Positions 1 through 5,981 of a DNA stretch of 6,381 bases are shown in pieces (position 1 is the stretch's first letter; the number at the start of each line of letters is the position of its first letter). The position numbers and the translations under genes were made by a program. Below the pieces are notes generated by a model that saw only the letters and a list, made by a program, of their open reading frames with translations, ran no database searches and was not told the DNA's origin. Origin of the DNA: a bacterium (GTDB lineage: Bacteria > KSB1 > UBA2214); contig JAKQKF010000232.1 of the NCBI GenBank assembly GCA_029560815.1, forward strand, positions 1-6,381, written 5' to 3'.

Positions 1-231
1 TGCGCCTGCGGCGGGGATGTATTCTATGACAGCTATAACATGTACGGCGGGGTGGACAAGGTCATCCCGGTGAATTTCTACGTTTCGGGCTGCCCGCCAC
101 GGCCGGAGGCGATCCTCTACGGTGTGGCCGTCGCCCTGGGACTGGCGCCCAAAAAGGTGGCCAAAAAGTCGATCAGCGATCTGCCGGACACTCTGGATCT
201 CAATCCTCCCATGCTGGAGCTGCGCAAATAA
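1..231 (+). CDS. NuoB-like small subunit of a group 4 [NiFe]-hydrogenase/complex I family (C-terminal part)
   Basis: The frame is open from base 1, so only the last 76 codons are present; the stop is TAA at 229-231. This subunit carries the proximal [4Fe-4S] cluster that passes electrons between the large catalytic subunit and the rest of a membrane complex. Visible here are a Cys at codon 1 (CACGGD), the segment [17 protein letters not shown], and [13 protein letters not shown] with the last cluster Cys at codon 31. The FYDSYN...GGVDKVIPV wording is closer to Ech/Mbh-type hydrogenase small subunits than to respiratory NuoB, which usually reads YHYSYSV..GCD; this assignment is from memory of the families. 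The tail after the GCPP motif is short, as usual. The neighbouring hydrogenase-like sensor supports a hydrogenase role. A quinone-linked complex I subunit remains the alternative. Confidence 0.85.
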
Positions 232-360: not shown

Positions 361-2409
361 ATGGATCCCATTGTAACCACCATAGAGAACCGCTGCAAGC
401 GCTGCTATCTCTGCGTCCGCCGCTGCCCTGCGAAGGCCATCCGCGTCGAGAACGGACAGGCCAAGGTGATGGCAGAGCGCTGCATCACCTGCGGTTACTG
501 TGTGCGCGTATGCCCTCAGCACGCGAAGCACATCCGTGATGGAATCGTGCATACCCGCGAGCTGCTCTCCGGCGAGGAGGAGACCATCGCCCTGCTGGCG
601 CCCTCATTTCCCGCGGCTTTCACCGGCGTGCGCCCGCTGCAGGTGGTGGAGGGGCTGCACAGGCTCGGCTTTGCCAGGGTCTACGAGGTGGCCCTGGGTG
701 CGGATCTGGTCGGGGCTGAATATGCCCGGCTCAAAGAGGCCGACATCATGCCGATCATCGTCACCTCGCCCTGCCCTGCGATCGTCAATTTCATCGAAAA
801 ATATTACCCCGAGCTTCTGCTGATCCTGGCGCCGGTGGTCTCGCCGATGATCGCTCTGGCGCGGCTGATCAGATCGCAGTGGCACCCGAAAGCCCGTATG
901 GTCTTCATCGGACCCTGCATCGCCAAAAAGAGGGAGATGGATGATCCCAAGACCGGCGGCCTCATCGACGAGGTGCTCACCTTCGAAGAGCTGACGGCCC
1001 TCTTCCGCAGCGAAAAGATCGAACTCGTGCGGCTGCCGGACCGGGCCCCCGATGGGCCTGAAGCGGGCATCGGCCGGGCTTTTGCCGTTTCGGGCGGACT
1101 GCTCGATACGGCCCGCATCCCGGGCGGCACCCTGCAGAACAAGGTGATCGTCACCGAGGGGCGGGACCGGATCCTCGACGCCCTGCACAAGGTGAGCGAG
1201 GGCAACATCGAGGCCCGTTTCCTCGACCTCCTCTTCTGCGAAGGCTGCATCAATGGTCCGCAGATGGACAACGATCTTTCCGGCTTTGTCCGCAAGGACA
1301 AGGTGATCCATTTTCTCCACCACAGCGATGAGAACACTTCTTTTCAGGAACGCAGCCGCTGGATGGAGAAGATCAAGCCCGTCGATCTCAGCCGTGAATT
1401 CACCCGCGAGGAGATCTCGCTGCCCCTGCCCTCGGATGAAAAGCTGGCGGAGATCCTCGCCATCACCGGCAAGAAAACGCCGGAGGACGAACTTAACTGC
1501 GGCGCCTGCGGCTATCCGACCTGCCGCGAGAAGGCTATTGCGGTCTATCAGGGCATTGCTGAGGCGGAGATGTGTCTGCCCTACCTGATCGACCAGCTGC
1601 AAAAGACCGAGGGTGAGCTGACCGCCTCCAACGTGGAGCTGAAAAGGTCGATCGAAACCCTGCGGCGAACCCAGGCGCAGCTGCTGCAGTCGGAAAAGAT
1701 GGCCTCCGTCGGCGAACTCGCCGCCGGTGTGGCGCACGAGCTCAACAATCCGCTCGGCGGCATTCTCATCTACACCAGCCTGCTGCTGGAGAAAGCCGCC
1801 AACGGGGCGCAGGATAGAGAAGATCTCGAACTGATCAGGGCGGAGACCGAACGCTGCAAAAAGATCGTACGCGGCCTGCTCGATTTTTCGCGTCAGACGC
1901 GCATCGAGGCGGCTATTGCCGATCTCAACCAGATCCTGGCCGGCACTCTTGCCCTGGTGACTCAGCAGGCCCTCTTTCACAATATCAAGGTGGAGCAGAA
2001 TTACCTCCCGGGCCTGCCCAAGGTCTTTGTCGATATCGGCCAGATCCAGCAGGTTCTGCTCAATATCATCCTCAACGCCGTCGAGGCGATGCACGAAAAG
2101 GGGACGCTGACCATCACGACCACGTCGGACCCGGCCAAACAGCAGGTCATGCTGACCATCCGTGATACAGGCAAGGGGATGAGCCCGGAGCTTCTGGCCA
2201 GGATCTTTGAACCCTTTTTCACGACCAAACCGCGCGGGGTCGGCACCGGGCTCGGACTCTCCATCGCCTACGGGATTATCCAGCGCCATCATGGCGAGAT
2301 TCTGGTCAAAAGCACACCGGGTGAAGGCAGTGAATTCACGATCGTTCTGCCGGAGGCGGAGAAGATGGTCATGACCGATATCGAGCTGGCAGGAATCGAA
2401 AAGGAATAG
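361..2409 (+). CDS. [FeFe]-hydrogenase-like iron-sulfur sensor histidine kinase
   Basis: This 682-residue protein is probably a soluble sensor kinase; no signal peptide or membrane segment is seen. Domains in order: two [4Fe-4S] ferredoxin motifs (C12, C15, C18, C22 and C41, C44, C47, C51); an [FeFe]-hydrogenase large-subunit-like domain at about 75-320; a four-Cys Fe-S domain (C380, C383, C388, C405, PF04060 type); a coiled coil at about 408-445; HisKA with VAHELNNP (H459 phosphoacceptor); and HATPase_c with N572, DTGKG at 602-606, FEPFFTTK and GTGLGLS. The H-cluster motifs are altered: L1 is TSPCP (C138), L2 is the normal PCIAKKRE (C186), and L3 is CEGC (C293, C296). Sensing redox state or H2 rather than catalysing H2 turnover is inferred. 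ATG 361 has no clear Shine-Dalgarno sequence; the frame is open upstream to 232 but has no other ATG, GTG or TTG start there, and the ferredoxin motif at residue 12 fits this start. The stop lies 18 bases before the next start. Confidence 0.93.
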   Translation: MDPIVTTIENRCKRCYLCVRRCPAKAIRVENGQAKVMAERCITCGYCVRVCPQHAKHIRDGIVHTRELLSGEEETIALLAPSFPAAFTGVRPLQVVEGLHRLGFARVYEVALGADLVGAEYARLKEADIMPIIVTSPCPAIVNFIEKYYPELLLILAPVVSPMIALARLIRSQWHPKARMVFIGPCIAKKREMDDPKTGGLIDEVLTFEELTALFRSEKIELVRLPDRAPDGPEAGIGRAFAVSGGLLDTARIPGGTLQNKVIVTEGRDRILDALHKVSEGNIEARFLDLLFCEGCINGPQMDNDLSGFVRKDKVIHFLHHSDENTSFQERSRWMEKIKPVDLSREFTREEISLPLPSDEKLAEILAITGKKTPEDELNCGACGYPTCREKAIAVYQGIAEAEMCLPYLIDQLQKTEGELTASNVELKRSIETLRRTQAQLLQSEKMASVGELAAGVAHELNNPLGGILIYTSLLLEKAANGAQDREDLELIRAETERCKKIVRGLLDFSRQTRIEAAIADLNQILAGTLALVTQQALFHNIKVEQNYLPGLPKVFVDIGQIQQVLLNIILNAVEAMHEKGTLTITTTSDPAKQQVMLTIRDTGKGMSPELLARIFEPFFTTKPRGVGTGLGLSIAYGIIQRHHGEILVKSTPGEGSEFTIVLPEAEKMVMTDIELAGIEKE

Positions 2410-2415
2410 CGTATG

Positions 2416-2421
2416 AGGAGA
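2416..2421 (+). promoter_or_regulatory. Ribosome binding site that fixes the start of the first receiver gene
   Basis: AGGAGA lies six bases before ATG 2428. An in-frame ATG at 2413 immediately precedes this motif and would place the ribosome binding site inside the coding region. The later start is therefore preferred, and it also aligns the acidic triad at residues 11-13 with that of the next receiver. Confidence 0.75.
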
Positions 2422-2427
2422 AGCAGC

Positions 2428-2871
2428 ATGGCCGAACAGGGAAAAATATTGCTGGTCGATGATGATCCCGATTTCAACATCATCAACCGCACCATACTCG
2501 AAAGCGACGGCTACTACGTCGAGGAGGCGAAGGACCCCGAGAGCGCCTGGGAGAAGATCCTGAGCTGGAAGCCGGACCTCATCTGCCTCGATGTCATGAT
2601 GCCAACCGGTACGGAGGGCTTTCATTTCGCCTACAAGGTCAGGCGCGATGAGGCGACCCGGCATATTCCCATCCTTATGATCACGGCGATCCACCAGCAC
2701 AGTGATTTCCGTTTCTCCACCGAGGATGGCGAATATCTGCCCGTCGACGAATTTGTCGAAAAACCGATCAAGCCCGAGGTGCTGCTGGCGAAGGTCAAAG
2801 CCCTGATCGCTGCGGCCCGCCCGGCACTGCCCAGGCCGGCCGACGACAAGGGCATCGGCCTGAAAAAATAA
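2428..2871 (+). CDS. Single-domain response regulator (receiver 1)
   Basis: A 147-residue CheY-like receiver with no output domain. Visible residues are the acidic triad D11-D13 (LLVDDDPDF), the phosphoacceptor D55 (CLDVMMP), the switch T86 (LMITA) and K112 (EKPIKP). The T86 to K112 gap is about four residues longer than in CheY and carries the acidic/aromatic stretch FRFSTEDGEYLPVDEF. A Pro/Lys-rich tail of about 20 residues follows the fold. It lies 18 bases after the Fe-S sensor kinase, which makes it the natural phosphate acceptor of that kinase (inference). It is clearly related to the next gene: both share LLVDDDPDF, a PILM-T strand, the F-FS-ED loop and KP-KP. With no DNA-binding domain, its output is probably a protein contact or phosphate transfer. 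Confidence 0.92.
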   Translation: MAEQGKILLVDDDPDFNIINRTILESDGYYVEEAKDPESAWEKILSWKPDLICLDVMMPTGTEGFHFAYKVRRDEATRHIPILMITAIHQHSDFRFSTEDGEYLPVDEFVEKPIKPEVLLAKVKALIAAARPALPRPADDKGIGLKK

Positions 2872-2891
2872 AACTAACCTGGACCCTCTAC

Positions 2892-3308
2892 ATGGAAAAG
2901 AAAAAACGCATACTCCTGGTCGATGACGACCCCGACTTTGTCGACATCAACCGCATGATCCTTGAGGCGGCCGATTACATAGTCGATGAAGCCGATACCG
3001 TCGCCATCGCCCTGCAGCGGCTCGAGGAGGAGTCCTACGATCTTTTGATCATCGATCTGATGATGGAGGAGCGCGACTCGGGCTTTACTCTCACGTACGC
3101 CGTACGCAGTGATGAACGGCTGCGGGATCTTCCCATCCTCATGCTGACTTCGGCCCAGGAAAAGACCGGCTTCAGCTTTCAATTCAGTGAAGATCGGGAG
3201 TGGATGAAAGTGGATGATTTCGCCGCCAAGCCGCTCAAACCCGCCGAGCTGGTAGCGAGGATCGAAAAACTGACCGGGAAAGGCACTCCGCATGATGCAA
3301 AGCCGTGA
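2892..3308 (+). CDS. Single-domain response regulator (receiver 2)
   Basis: A 138-residue receiver, tandem paralogue of the preceding gene. D11-D13, phosphoacceptor D55 (IIDLMM), T86 (LMLTS) and K113 (AKPLKP) are all present, so it should be phosphorylatable. Position 58-59 reads EE where most receivers have a Pro after the MM pair. The same extended stretch between T86 and K113 is present (FSFQFSEDREWMKVDDF). The start has only a weak ribosome binding site (TGGA about 11 bases upstream), but alignment of residue numbering with receiver 1 supports ATG 2892. The end overlaps the next gene by 17 bases, which suggests translational coupling to the hybrid kinase. There is no output domain. Phosphate donor and target are not shown by the sequence. 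Confidence 0.92.
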   Translation: MEKKKRILLVDDDPDFVDINRMILEAADYIVDEADTVAIALQRLEEESYDLLIIDLMMEERDSGFTLTYAVRSDERLRDLPILMLTSAQEKTGFSFQFSEDREWMKVDDFAAKPLKPAELVARIEKLTGKGTPHDAKP

Positions 3309-4779
3309 GGCGAGGATCCTAGTGGTGGACGACGAGGAGATCATCCGCATCGGCTGCCAGCGCATCCTGCAAAGTCCCGGTTTCAGCGTCGACCTGGCGG
3401 AGAATGGACGCATCGGCTGGGAGATGGTACAGAAAAACAGATATGATATGATCCTGGTCGATCTGATGATGCCGGAGATGGGCGGACTGGAGGTGCTTGA
3501 AAAGGTCCAGGCTTATGACGAGCAGATCATCACCATCATCATCACCGGTTTTGCCACTATCGAAACGGCAGTGGATGCGATGCGCAGAGGGGCCTATGAT
3601 TATCTGCCCAAGCCCTTCTCTCCGGAAGAGCTGCGCACCAAGATCCGCCGCGGCCTGGAGAAGCGCTGGCTGCTCCTCGAAGCGGAGAACCTGCGCCGGG
3701 AGCGCGATCGCAATCTGCTCGAATTGTCGAATGAAAAATCGCGCACGATGACGCTGATCAACTGCATGAGTGAGGGTTTGATCGCCACCAACCGCGCCGG
3801 ACAGATCGTGCTGATGAATCCGGCGGCCCAGAAGCTGCTCAATCTGCCGCCGGAGAATGTCGTCGGCTCCACGGTCGAGGGGCTGCTCGGTAATCCGGAA
3901 CTGGAAAAACTTATCGCCGGAGAGCTGGAGACTGTTGCCCGGACGGCCACCGTCACCAGCACCGAGTTCGCTGTCGCTGGAGAGCGCTTTCTCCAGTCGA
4001 ATACTGCCCCCCTGCACGACGACAAAGGCGAGGTCTGGGGCAGCGTGACGGTCCTGGTCGATATAACCGAAGACAAAAAACTCGATCAGCTCAAGAGCGA
4101 TTTCGTCAGCCTCGTCAGCCATGAACTCAAGTCGCCGGTGGCGGCAATCGCCGGCTATCTCAATCTCATCATCGATGGACTCACCACCGGCAAGCCGGAG
4201 AAGGAGCGGGAGATCATCCAGCGCTCGCGCGACAAGGCCGACAGCTTGCTGATGTTGATCAACGACCTGCTCGACATGTCGCGCGCCGAGCGCCGCGGCG
4301 TCGCCAAGGTGAAAGAGCCGCTCCAGCTGGCGCCCATTCTTGAGGAGACCCTGCAGTTCTACCAGAACGAAGCCGCGGCCAAGTCGCTCTCGATCAGCAT
4401 GGAAGGGGTCGATAACCTGCCCGAGGTGGTGGGCAACCGCGATGACCTGGCGCGCCTCTTCGCCAATCTGGTCAGCAACGCCATCAAGTACACGCCGGAA
4501 AAAGGCGAGGTCAGGGTGACAGGCCGCAAGCGCAACGGCCATATCGAGGTGGCGGTCAGCGACACCGGCATCGGCATTTCCAAAGAGGAGATGCAAAAGG
4601 TCTTTGGCGAATTCTTCCGCGCCCGTAACGCCCTGGCGCACAAGATCTCCGGCACCGGCCTGGGGCTGGCCATCTGCCGCCGCATCATTGATGACCATCA
4701 CGGCCAGATCACGGTCGAGAGCGAAATCGACAAAGGCTCCACCTTTCGCGTCATCCTGCCGGTCCGCTCCGGCCAGTGA
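3292..4779 (+). CDS. Hybrid sensor histidine kinase, REC-PAS-HisKA-HATPase
   Basis: A 495-residue soluble kinase with an N-terminal receiver. The receiver (about 7-122) has D13/D14, phosphoacceptor D57 (LVDLMMPEMGG), T85 and K107 (LPKPFSP), with normal CheY-like spacing. A charged helix (about 120-150) leads to a PAS domain (about 152-260: CMSEGLIATNRAGQIVLMN and a closing VLVDITE). HisKA has FVSLVSHELKSP with H277; HATPase_c has N396 (SNAIKYTP), DTGIG at 424-428, FGEFFRA and GTGLGLA. There is no membrane segment. It starts ATGATG at 3292, inside the previous gene, with GGGAAAGG at 3276-3283 as a plausible ribosome binding site; ATG 3295 is an equivalent alternative. Position and architecture suggest the REC accepts phosphate from a partner kinase, such as the Fe-S sensor, and tunes this kinase. 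That is inference, and the PAS ligand is unknown. Confidence 0.94.
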   Translation: MMQSREARILVVDDEEIIRIGCQRILQSPGFSVDLAENGRIGWEMVQKNRYDMILVDLMMPEMGGLEVLEKVQAYDEQIITIIITGFATIETAVDAMRRGAYDYLPKPFSPEELRTKIRRGLEKRWLLLEAENLRRERDRNLLELSNEKSRTMTLINCMSEGLIATNRAGQIVLMNPAAQKLLNLPPENVVGSTVEGLLGNPELEKLIAGELETVARTATVTSTEFAVAGERFLQSNTAPLHDDKGEVWGSVTVLVDITEDKKLDQLKSDFVSLVSHELKSPVAAIAGYLNLIIDGLTTGKPEKEREIIQRSRDKADSLLMLINDLLDMSRAERRGVAKVKEPLQLAPILEETLQFYQNEAAAKSLSISMEGVDNLPEVVGNRDDLARLFANLVSNAIKYTPEKGEVRVTGRKRNGHIEVAVSDTGIGISKEEMQKVFGEFFRARNALAHKISGTGLGLAICRRIIDDHHGQITVESEIDKGSTFRVILPVRSGQ

Positions 4780-4821: not shown

Positions 4822-5163
4822 ATGCAACTGCGCCAGATGATTGAAACGATGGACCTGAAGGTGCTCAGCGGTGATCCCGAACTGCCGGTCGAGGTGAGCA
4901 GCGCCTATATCTCAGACATCCTTAGCGACGTGATGGCCAAGGCTGTCAAGGGGTCGGTCTGGATCACCAACCAGACCCACATGAATGTCATCGCCATCTG
5001 TTTTTTCAAGAGCCTGGCCGCTGTGGTCCTGCCCGACGGCCTCGAACCGGACGAGACCGTTCTGGCCAAAGCGCGGGAAAAGAATATCCTGCTCCTGTCG
5101 ACGCCCTTTTCTGCATTTGAAGTGGCGGGCAAATTGTACGCTTTAGGCCTGCGCGGACTATAG
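4822..5163 (+). CDS. Stand-alone DRTGG-domain protein, hydrogenase-associated type
   Basis: A 113-residue single-domain protein resembling the DRTGG family (PF07085), often annotated loosely as an HPr serine kinase-like regulator although it has no kinase domain. Visible family features are a short N-terminal helix (MQLRQMIETMDLKVL), AYISDILSDVMAKA at about 28-41, GSVWITNQTHMNVIAI at about 44-59, a hydrophobic strand LAAVVLPDG, and STPFSAFEVAGKLYALG near the end. The literal DRTGG string is absent, as is common in this small type. Such genes are frequently found beside [FeFe]-hydrogenase and Fe-S sensor genes in anaerobes (family knowledge, recalled). It starts 42 bases after the hybrid kinase and so probably belongs to the same operon. 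A ligand-binding or regulatory role is likely; substrate and partner are unknown. Confidence 0.82.
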   Translation: MQLRQMIETMDLKVLSGDPELPVEVSSAYISDILSDVMAKAVKGSVWITNQTHMNVIAICFFKSLAAVVLPDGLEPDETVLAKAREKNILLLSTPFSAFEVAGKLYALGLRGL

Positions 5164-5190: not shown

Positions 5191-5670
5191 ATGGCCAACC
5201 TTTTTCTTGCCCATGAAATCGTCGCGATGAACGTGACCGAGGAGCGCAATGGCGCTCTCTTTTATGAGTCCCTTGCCCAGAGTGCCGAAAGCGCGGCGCT
5301 GCGCACCGCCGCCGCTGCAATTGCCCGGCAGGAAAGAGCGCATGAAGAACGTTTTGCCCAGCTGGCCGAGAGCCTGGAACAGCCGCCATCGGCGGAGAGC
5401 TATGCCGGCGAGTACGAAGCCTACCTCGAGCAGCTCTGGCAGAACAAGATGTTCACGGATGAGCAGGACGCCATTGACACCGCTGCCAGCCTCGATGACC
5501 TCGCCGCAGTCGAGTTCGCCATGGAGACCGAAGAGGCGACCCTCAACCTGCTGCGCCAGCTGGTCAAAGAGATCGATCCCCGCGATCTCGCGGTCGTGCA
5601 GGAGACCATCGTCGAGGAAGAGGCCCATCTGGATCAGTTGCGCCTGGTGCTGCATCAGCTGCGCACCTGA
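5191..5670 (+). CDS. Ferritin-like diiron protein, rubrerythrin family without rubredoxin domain
   Basis: A 159-residue four-helix protein, nearly all helical. Both ExxH pairs of a diiron site are visible: E48-x-x-H51 (RQERAHEE) in the second helix and E143-x-x-H146 (VEEEAHLDQL) in the fourth. Acidic partners lie in helix one (E17/E18, EERNGALFYESLA) and helix three (E112-E115, METEEATLNLL). There is no CxxC pair, so the rubredoxin domain of classical rubrerythrin is absent. The family commonly reduces peroxide or handles iron and O2 in anaerobes, which would suit protection of Fe-S and hydrogenase proteins (inference). AGGAGA at 5179-5184, six bases before ATG 5191, supports the start. It lies 27 bases after the DRTGG gene and is likely the last gene of the operon. 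Confidence 0.85.
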   Translation: MANLFLAHEIVAMNVTEERNGALFYESLAQSAESAALRTAAAAIARQERAHEERFAQLAESLEQPPSAESYAGEYEAYLEQLWQNKMFTDEQDAIDTAASLDDLAAVEFAMETEEATLNLLRQLVKEIDPRDLAVVQETIVEEEAHLDQLRLVLHQLRT

Positions 5671-5822: not shown

Positions 5823-5981
5823 ATGCGCTGCAGTAACATGCTGATTTCGCTGTTCCTCCTGCTCGGCGCGACCCTCCTCAACGGGCAGGAGCTGCTCCCG
5901 CAGGATGGGGATGTGGTCGTCACCCTGGGCAACAGCATCACCGGGCTGGGCGCAAGCCCGGCCGGGGAAGAAGCTTGTTAA
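5823..5981 (+). pseudogene. Probable remnant of a secreted SGNH/GDSL-type hydrolase gene
   Basis: A 52-codon ORF starts with a signal-peptide-like segment (MRCSNMLISLFLLLGATLL). After a short linker it reads DGDVVVTLGNSITGLG, which matches the first block of SGNH hydrolases with the nucleophile Ser at residue 38 in GNSIT. Whole enzymes of this family are about 200 residues or more, and the Gly, Asn and Asp-x-x-His blocks are missing. After the TAA stop, the -1 frame reads LLKPLVDEIFNQWQVIP up to a second stop at 6026-6028, which could be the C-terminal end of a gene with a large internal deletion. Upstream AAAGAGAGTAAAG is a poor ribosome binding site. A genuine small secreted peptide cannot be excluded. 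Confidence 0.5.

Follow-up and report, generated by a model that had tools for sequence, protein, structure and literature searches.

A sensor histidine kinase built on an [FeFe]-hydrogenase H-domain that may work without an H-cluster

The window, the whole stretch of 6,381 nucleotides analysed here, encodes a hydrogenase-like sensor histidine kinase of 682 residues, preceded by the 3′ end of a membrane-complex gene and followed by a conserved cassette that runs from two stand-alone receiver proteins to a rubrerythrin-like protein (Table 1). The nearest relative of the kinase, at locus L001 of genome G001, is 93% identical. No DNA-binding output domain was found after the kinase within the window, where positions 2413-4779 hold the two receivers and a hybrid kinase, and Rfam gave zero matches across the window at the gathering score. 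A short open reading frame at 5823-5981 has a signal-peptide-like start, the string VVVTLGNSITG and an early end. We take the string to be reminiscent of the start of an SGNH/GDSL hydrolase, and the frame is possibly a gene remnant.

Table 1. Features of the window, with the loops and domains of the kinase listed below its gene.
Feature	Position	Strand	Basis and conservation
NuoB/HyfI-like small subunit of a group 4 [NiFe]-hydrogenase-type membrane complex, 3′ end	1..231	+	PF01058, E 9.7e-9
Hydrogenase-like sensor histidine kinase, 682 aa	361..2409	+	Translation and Pfam domain search
N-terminal 2x[4Fe-4S] ferredoxin domain, C12-C51	394..513	+	PF13237/PF00037
[FeFe]-hydrogenase H-domain, residues 74-300	580..1260	+	PF02906, E 8.4e-48
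L1, TSPCP (T135-S-P137-C138-P139)	763..777	+	Translation; relay Cys replaced by Pro, cubane C138 retained
L2, PCIAKKRE (P185-C186-I-A-K189-K-R-E192)	913..936	+	Translation; cubane C186 and K189 retained
L3, CEGC (C293-E-G-C296)	1237..1248	+	Translation; both Cys retained, one residue shorter than CxxxC
C-terminal FeS domain, Cx2Cx4Cx16C (C380, C383, C388, C405)	1492..1581	+	PF04060, E 1.7e-10
Kinase core, HisKA and HATPase_c	1711..2358	+	PF00512, E 5.5e-15; PF02518, E 3.2e-27
Stand-alone receiver protein RR1	2413..2871	+	PF00072; neighbour kept in L001, L002, L003 and L005, absent in L004
Stand-alone receiver protein RR2	2892..3308	+	PF00072; neighbour kept in L001-L005
Receiver-PAS-histidine kinase hybrid	3292..4779	+	PF00072, PF08448, PF00512, PF02518; kept in L001-L005
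Small DRTGG-domain protein	4822..5163	+	PF07085; kept in L001-L005 and beside the paralogue in L164
Rubrerythrin-like protein, last of the conserved cassette	5191..5670	+	PF02915; present in L001, L002 and L003

The fold of the H-domain, detected through PF02906, is retained in the predicted structure model too, and the Pfam domains of the kinase core are intact; the Pfam search found no PAS domain in the protein, the histidine kinase being fused directly. The earlier note had described the three ligand loops from the DNA letters, and the translation agrees with it throughout: L1 has lost the relay cysteine to proline and kept the ligand cysteine (the noted span of 763-780 included the next Ala codon), L2 is intact, and L3 is one residue short and followed by I-N-G-P rather than GGG. 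A canonical CxxxC elsewhere in the H-domain, which would have told against that description, is absent, as the only cysteines the domain contains are C138, C186, C293 and C296, all four of the [4Fe-4S]H cubane ligands. By motif alignment, the positions of C299 (the relay cysteine), M353 and M497 of CpI are occupied by P137, G184 and L291. K189 we take to be a ligand-binding residue for the [2Fe]H site.

Whether a CxxC loop is usual in this subfamily had been left as a question, and the homologues answer it in the affirmative. Among the best 120 of 7950 matches to the window sensor, L3 reads xCxGC in 119, the exception being P0073 with CDGGC; with the query counted, CxGC is found in 120 of 121 proteins, and the relay position of L1 is Pro in 114, Ala or Ser in five and without a regex match in two. 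In the 82 genomes of the phylum that holds the window's nearest relatives (around G002, and including G001), kinase-fused proteins carry C(x)xGC in 48 of 48 callable cases, a total that omits two G003 kinases binned as A-like, both of which enter the later counts. FeS-domain sensors without a kinase carry CxxxC in 11 of 13 cases from the same genomes, the other two being truncated reading frames. For these tallies ‘HK’ was assigned by an H-box regex, with CCxGC scored as CxxC, and the PF02906 table received 135 of 141 rows, small fragments being omitted and two pieces of one G051 gene merged. In the tree, which came from a quick search with SH-aLRT support only and a long-branch warning, a different regex coloured the CCxGC rows as CxxxC. 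On these sequences, the kinase-fused subfamily typically has CxxC in L3, and the altered loop is no peculiarity of the window protein.

A sister set, the best 120 of 7500 matches to the Bacteroidales kinase of G007, has CCxGC as L3 in 119 of 120 and Asp at the relay position in 119 of 120. CCxGC contains both spacings simultaneously, CxxC and CxxxC, and is a possible intermediate between them. These Bacteroidota-type kinases (P0122-P0241; for instance L161:12360-14348 on the reverse strand) thus combine CCxGC with an L1 of S/TSDCP, whose Asp is protonatable, and the G007 member sits inside a complete maturase operon. Five of the sister kinases (P0127, P0151, P0154, P0221 and P0230) are encoded on contigs of 3.7-4.6 Mb. 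For a working H2-sensing kinase, the sister set is the more promising group.

The loops themselves are poor guides to the loss of an H-cluster. The relay cysteine is not conserved in the characterised, H2-active enzymes of groups C and D, where Ala mostly stands in its place (available part of PMC10407848), and the Met353/Met497 positions are Gly/Ser in TmHydS and Ser/Leu in TamHydS (PMC8163306). The three CpI residues replaced in the window protein are therefore not required in those groups, and since H2-active enzymes do without the relay cysteine, the change in L1 alone says little. The earlier note's use of the Cys-to-Pro change as evidence for non-catalysis is not supported, and we rejected L1 Pro as a sign of H-cluster loss, as SQPCP occurs together with a canonical CxxxC L3 in HydEFG-positive G008 and G009 (Lachnospiraceae-type). 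Nor can weight be put on the missing GGG, which is also wanting in CxxxC sensors of the phylum set (for example CEGGCINGP and CAGGCVNGP). The CxxC of L3 was dropped as a sign as well: it is present in maturase-positive genomes, and it is not the marker of H-cluster loss because canonical-L3 proteins too occur in maturase-less genomes (CxxGC sensors in eight genomes, with TSCCP in addition in G051).

The distribution of the maturases HydE, HydF and HydG is more telling. PF02906 occurs in 46 of the 82 phylum genomes, among them all seven in which HydG exceeded the cut-off; HydE was found in the identical seven and HydF in five of them, and G053 gave a HydE-like match under the cut-off. The kinase is present in 35 genomes of the phylum, 31 of which have none of the three maturases over the cut-off and four of which (G026, G041, G042 and G054) are maturase-positive. 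G001, source of the closest kinase, is one of the 31, and G001-G005 all keep the cubane cysteines while the maturases are absent; for HydF these five gave low partial matches only, of a type that also rang in 14 of 14 control genomes. Among 198 Bacteroidia genomes centred on G007, taken as a control set, PF02906 was found in five and HydG in four, all within those five. The comparison of HydG among PF02906 genomes (7 of 46 in the phylum against 4 of 5 in Bacteroidia) gives a Fisher p of 0.006, or 0.02 to 0.03 without the centre genome G007 or additionally without five query-found genomes, values that are descriptive since the genomes are related. Because HydE and HydG were found in the same 7 of 82 genomes, random assembly gaps explain the pattern poorly, and on this agreement and the Bacteroidia control we judged an assembly artefact unlikely, genome completeness values not being given. 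As a separate observation, locus L118 (G051:C2:953492-959387) encodes a TSCCP/CxxxC hydrogenase-like protein together with a CxxxC sensor in a genome (G051, contigs of 2.6 and 1.2 Mb) where HydE, HydF and HydG are all absent over the cut-off; either part of this genome is missing, or maturases can be absent even where the motifs are intact.

We then compared the window protein and 47 rows from maturase-less genomes, 48 in all, with eight maturase-positive rows. All 16 cluster cysteines are invariant in 48/48 and 8/8, in part through the choice of rows, which needed the C-terminal FeS pattern and xCxGC in L3 and so partly built in the conservation of C293, C296 and C380-C405. C138, C186 and the eight ferredoxin cysteines, which were not selected for, are likewise kept in all 48 and all eight, and the cysteines of L1, L2 and L3 show no variation in A1, an alignment of 56 sequences. 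The ligands of four cubanes are thus all retained where, on present knowledge, the [2Fe]H subsite cannot be made. K189 is retained in 45 of the 48 rows and is Q in three (G064, G067 and G068), in which both residues before C186 are altered as well and C186 is retained. That the H-domain is a remnant serving only as scaffold or docking platform, its cubane having no part in signalling, would agree with the absent maturases, the lost relay cysteine and the altered pocket residues of those three rows; we nevertheless regard it as very improbable, given the invariance of the L1 and L2 cysteines across all 48 rows and, with L3, across A1.

Because 31 of 35 kinase-bearing genomes are without HydE, HydF and HydG while the cubane cysteines are fixed, a non-catalytic redox sensor with [4Fe-4S] clusters only is the best reading. 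The earlier note had allowed for such a sensor or for a dedicated H2 sensor; the survey strengthens the first, and the second becomes less likely in this lineage.

The surroundings of the kinase bear on both. The truncated gene at the start of the window has full-length orthologues in L001, L002, L003 and L005, at the end of membrane-complex genes that encode, upstream of the kinase, a 49-kDa/[NiFe] large subunit and NuoH-like, HyfH-like, HyfE-like, antiporter-like and NuoB-like proteins; the large subunit retains its C-terminal DPCxxC motif. L004 has none of these genes upstream of its kinase, and the equivalent kinase of G051 is 9 kb away from a large-subunit gene. A second setting, that of a paralogue in G046 and G051, reads NuoE-NuoF-HydA-like-HK-RR-RR-RR/PAS/HK-DRTGG-PHP, after which comes another NuoF-HydA-like pair (domains searched in G051 only); L1 of the HydA-like protein there is TSCSP. 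Maturase-positive G007 shows the gene order NuoE-NuoF-HydA(TSCCP)-HK-RR-RR/HK-HydG-HydF-HydE, and G227 has HydA with canonical TSCCP, the kinase and hydG inside 7 kb. In the fragmentary assembly of G006, where both PF02906 matches are such kinases, one has an NtrC-type sigma-54 regulator after it and then, 2-3 kb downstream of the kinase, hydG. To judge from these gene orders, the kinase belongs to ferredoxin/NADH-linked hydrogenase operons with or without the ability to make an H-cluster.

It is the maturase-positive operons that keep alive the alternative of a true group C H2 sensor, in which the CxxC loop would carry the cubane and [2Fe]H of a complete H-cluster and H2 binding would drive the kinase. 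The same type of kinase lies beside canonical HydA and HydG in G007 and G227 and upstream of hydG in G006, and is found also in the four maturase-positive genomes of the phylum; K189 is kept in most maturase-less rows; group C and D enzymes turn over H2 without the relay cysteine (PMC10407848, PMC8163306), and TamHydS likewise has Leu at the M497 position (PMC8163306). All of this speaks for an H2 sensor, and the operons, the four genomes and K189 also count against an H-cluster-free kinase, but the absence of maturases from most kinase-bearing genomes, the shortened L3, the Pro in L1 and the report that the CpI variant M497L did not integrate [2Fe]H properly (available part of PMC10055695) make the H2 sensor an unlikely choice in this lineage.

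Two further observations deserve mention. Among the A-like rows of the G002 phylum, 65 of 72 have a HydA-like L1 of TSCSP or TSCSS, in which the cubane-ligand Cys has become Ser (examples at L010-L013, L019-L022 and L056-L081), with three TSCC and four unread; 55 of the 65 are in maturase-less genomes and ten in maturase-positive ones, two of them directly beside hydG (G041 and G042). Owing to those ten, we rejected TSCSP in neighbouring HydA-like proteins as proof that no H-cluster is made. Ser at this place is on record for BfuA of Hydrogenedentota (PMC11406978).

The second, which lies outside the window, concerns the operon that immediately precedes the kinase orthologues, namely its gene for the large subunit of a group 4 [NiFe]-hydrogenase. 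In G001, G002 and G003 this gene has an in-frame TGA at the second Cys of the N-terminal RICGIC (L002:2527-2529; L171 and L172 at 1348-1350; L173 on its reverse strand). The frame stays open on either side of the TGA, DPCFSC is unaltered, and the equivalent position is Cys in 113 of 113 homologues with a readable motif (120 among the matches listed). The sequence points to selenocysteine, which would make the N-terminal motif CxxU; a review of 2026, in its available part, gives large-subunit Sec as UxxC and [NiFeSe] enzymes only from sulfate reducers and methanogens (PMC13188914). For this reading speak the 10-11 of 13 codons identical per pair after the TGA and a 7-bp hairpin; against it, the hairpin does not exceed shuffled sequences in stability (z -0.42 to -0.64) and the codons before the TGA are also well kept (21-22 of 30). 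Rfam matched no SECIS family in L171-L173, and ARAGORN confirmed tRNA-Sec in G003, G005 and G051, while none was found in G001 and G002.

Returning to the kinase, we propose, with a probability of roughly 0.57, that it is a sensor histidine kinase built from an [FeFe]-hydrogenase H-domain and working without an H-cluster in this lineage, and that it probably senses the electron pressure of the cell rather than H2 itself. The cysteines of L1, L2 and L3 would bind an ordinary [4Fe-4S] cubane that lacks the [2Fe]H subsite, as the absence of maturases in relatives suggests. The ferredoxin domain would be the electron inlet, fed by reduced ferredoxin or a neighbouring complex, and kinase activity would be set by how far the cubanes of the H-domain and of the C-terminal domain are reduced. 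Judging from the neighbouring genes, phosphate may pass to RR1, RR2 and the receiver-PAS-kinase hybrid, and the output may be the tuning of ferredoxin-linked hydrogenase complexes to the redox poise of the cell. If the kinase responded to H2 at all, it would do so indirectly, by way of the hydrogenase, whichever it is, that reduces the ferredoxin pool. Nar1 offers a characterised precedent by analogy, the neighbours in both settings are ferredoxin- or NADH-linked complexes, and the three maturase-less rows that lost K189 to Q yet keep C186 point the same way. Against the redox switch stands, by analogy, TamHydS, whose C-terminal cluster gave no response to H2 and so need not respond to it (available part of PMC13104023).

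A labile cluster could also report damage: the cubane, or a second cluster occupying the vacant pocket in the way suggested for Nar1, would fall apart under O2, NO or oxidative stress and thereby switch the kinase. Nar1 clusters are rapidly destroyed by O2, with a [2Fe-2S] cluster proposed in the emptied cavity (PMC12621388), and a rubrerythrin-like gene ends the cassette in the window, L001, L002 and L003. BLAST, however, found no such gene beside the kinase in L004 or L005, and the remaining neighbours are energy-metabolism complexes, so that we rate this sensor as somewhat less probable still than the H2 sensor.

What is new here is genomic, a sensor kinase kept where the maturases are absent. 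It is an even bet whether the H-cluster-free, [4Fe-4S]-only redox kinase extends to a widespread class derived from [FeFe]-hydrogenases, in which lineages lost the maturases and kept the sensor, the loop went from CxxxC to CxxC, the protein reads ferredoxin poise and a further small cluster may occupy the vacated pocket, as has been suggested for Nar1. If so, sequence alone would not justify treating a PF02906 kinase as an H2 sensor, with consequences for the automatic annotation of ‘sensory hydrogenases’ in metagenomes. The way in which group C sensors signal would also become testable, since this kinase type occurs both in maturase-positive and in maturase-less genomes.

The TmHydS-like putative sensory type is presumably the kinase-linked C1 of HydDB. 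With TmHydS, of group C (M2f), the window protein shares the N-terminal 2x[4Fe-4S] domain, the H-domain, the Cx2Cx4Cx16C cluster, a C-terminal signalling module, the missing relay cysteine and Gly at the M353 position (PMC8163306, PMC10407848); it differs in its directly fused kinase without a Pfam PAS domain, in the CxxC of L3 and in having near relatives without HydEFG. TamHydS, of group D (M2e), has the same three-part FeS layout, a replaced relay cysteine and Leu at the M497 position, and the Cx2Cx4Cx16C spacing is that quoted for M2e/M2f enzymes (PMC8163306), but TamHydS is kinase-free and H2-active once [2Fe]H is supplied, whereas the window protein has its own kinase and a shortened L3. 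In openly licensed literature, nothing nearer to the kinase question was found than a remark on the group C1 proteins of Hydrogenedentota, which share with the window kinase a HATPase_C domain on a hydrogenase-derived sensor; motifs P1-P3 are hardly detectable in them, 21 of 53 adjoin group A3 genes, and the authors doubt that they sense H2, with no mention of the CxxC form, of retained cubane cysteines or of a maturase survey (available part of PMC11406978). HylA of the formate-linked HylABC is another hydrogenase homologue that abandoned the H-cluster, as the window protein may have done, but it is an enzyme subunit without L1, L2 and L3 altogether (available part of PMC6085437), whereas the window protein retains the cubane cysteines. 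Nar1/IOP1 has the H-domain fold and a cubane, and its authors infer that [2Fe]H is missing since the maturases are lacking (available part of PMC12621388), the same argument that we draw for the kinase from its relatives. Nar1 is a kinase-free eukaryotic FeS-trafficking factor; the window protein, if our reading is true, would be its bacterial counterpart, an H-domain that has outlived its organometallic site and now serves a kinase as a simple FeS redox sensor.
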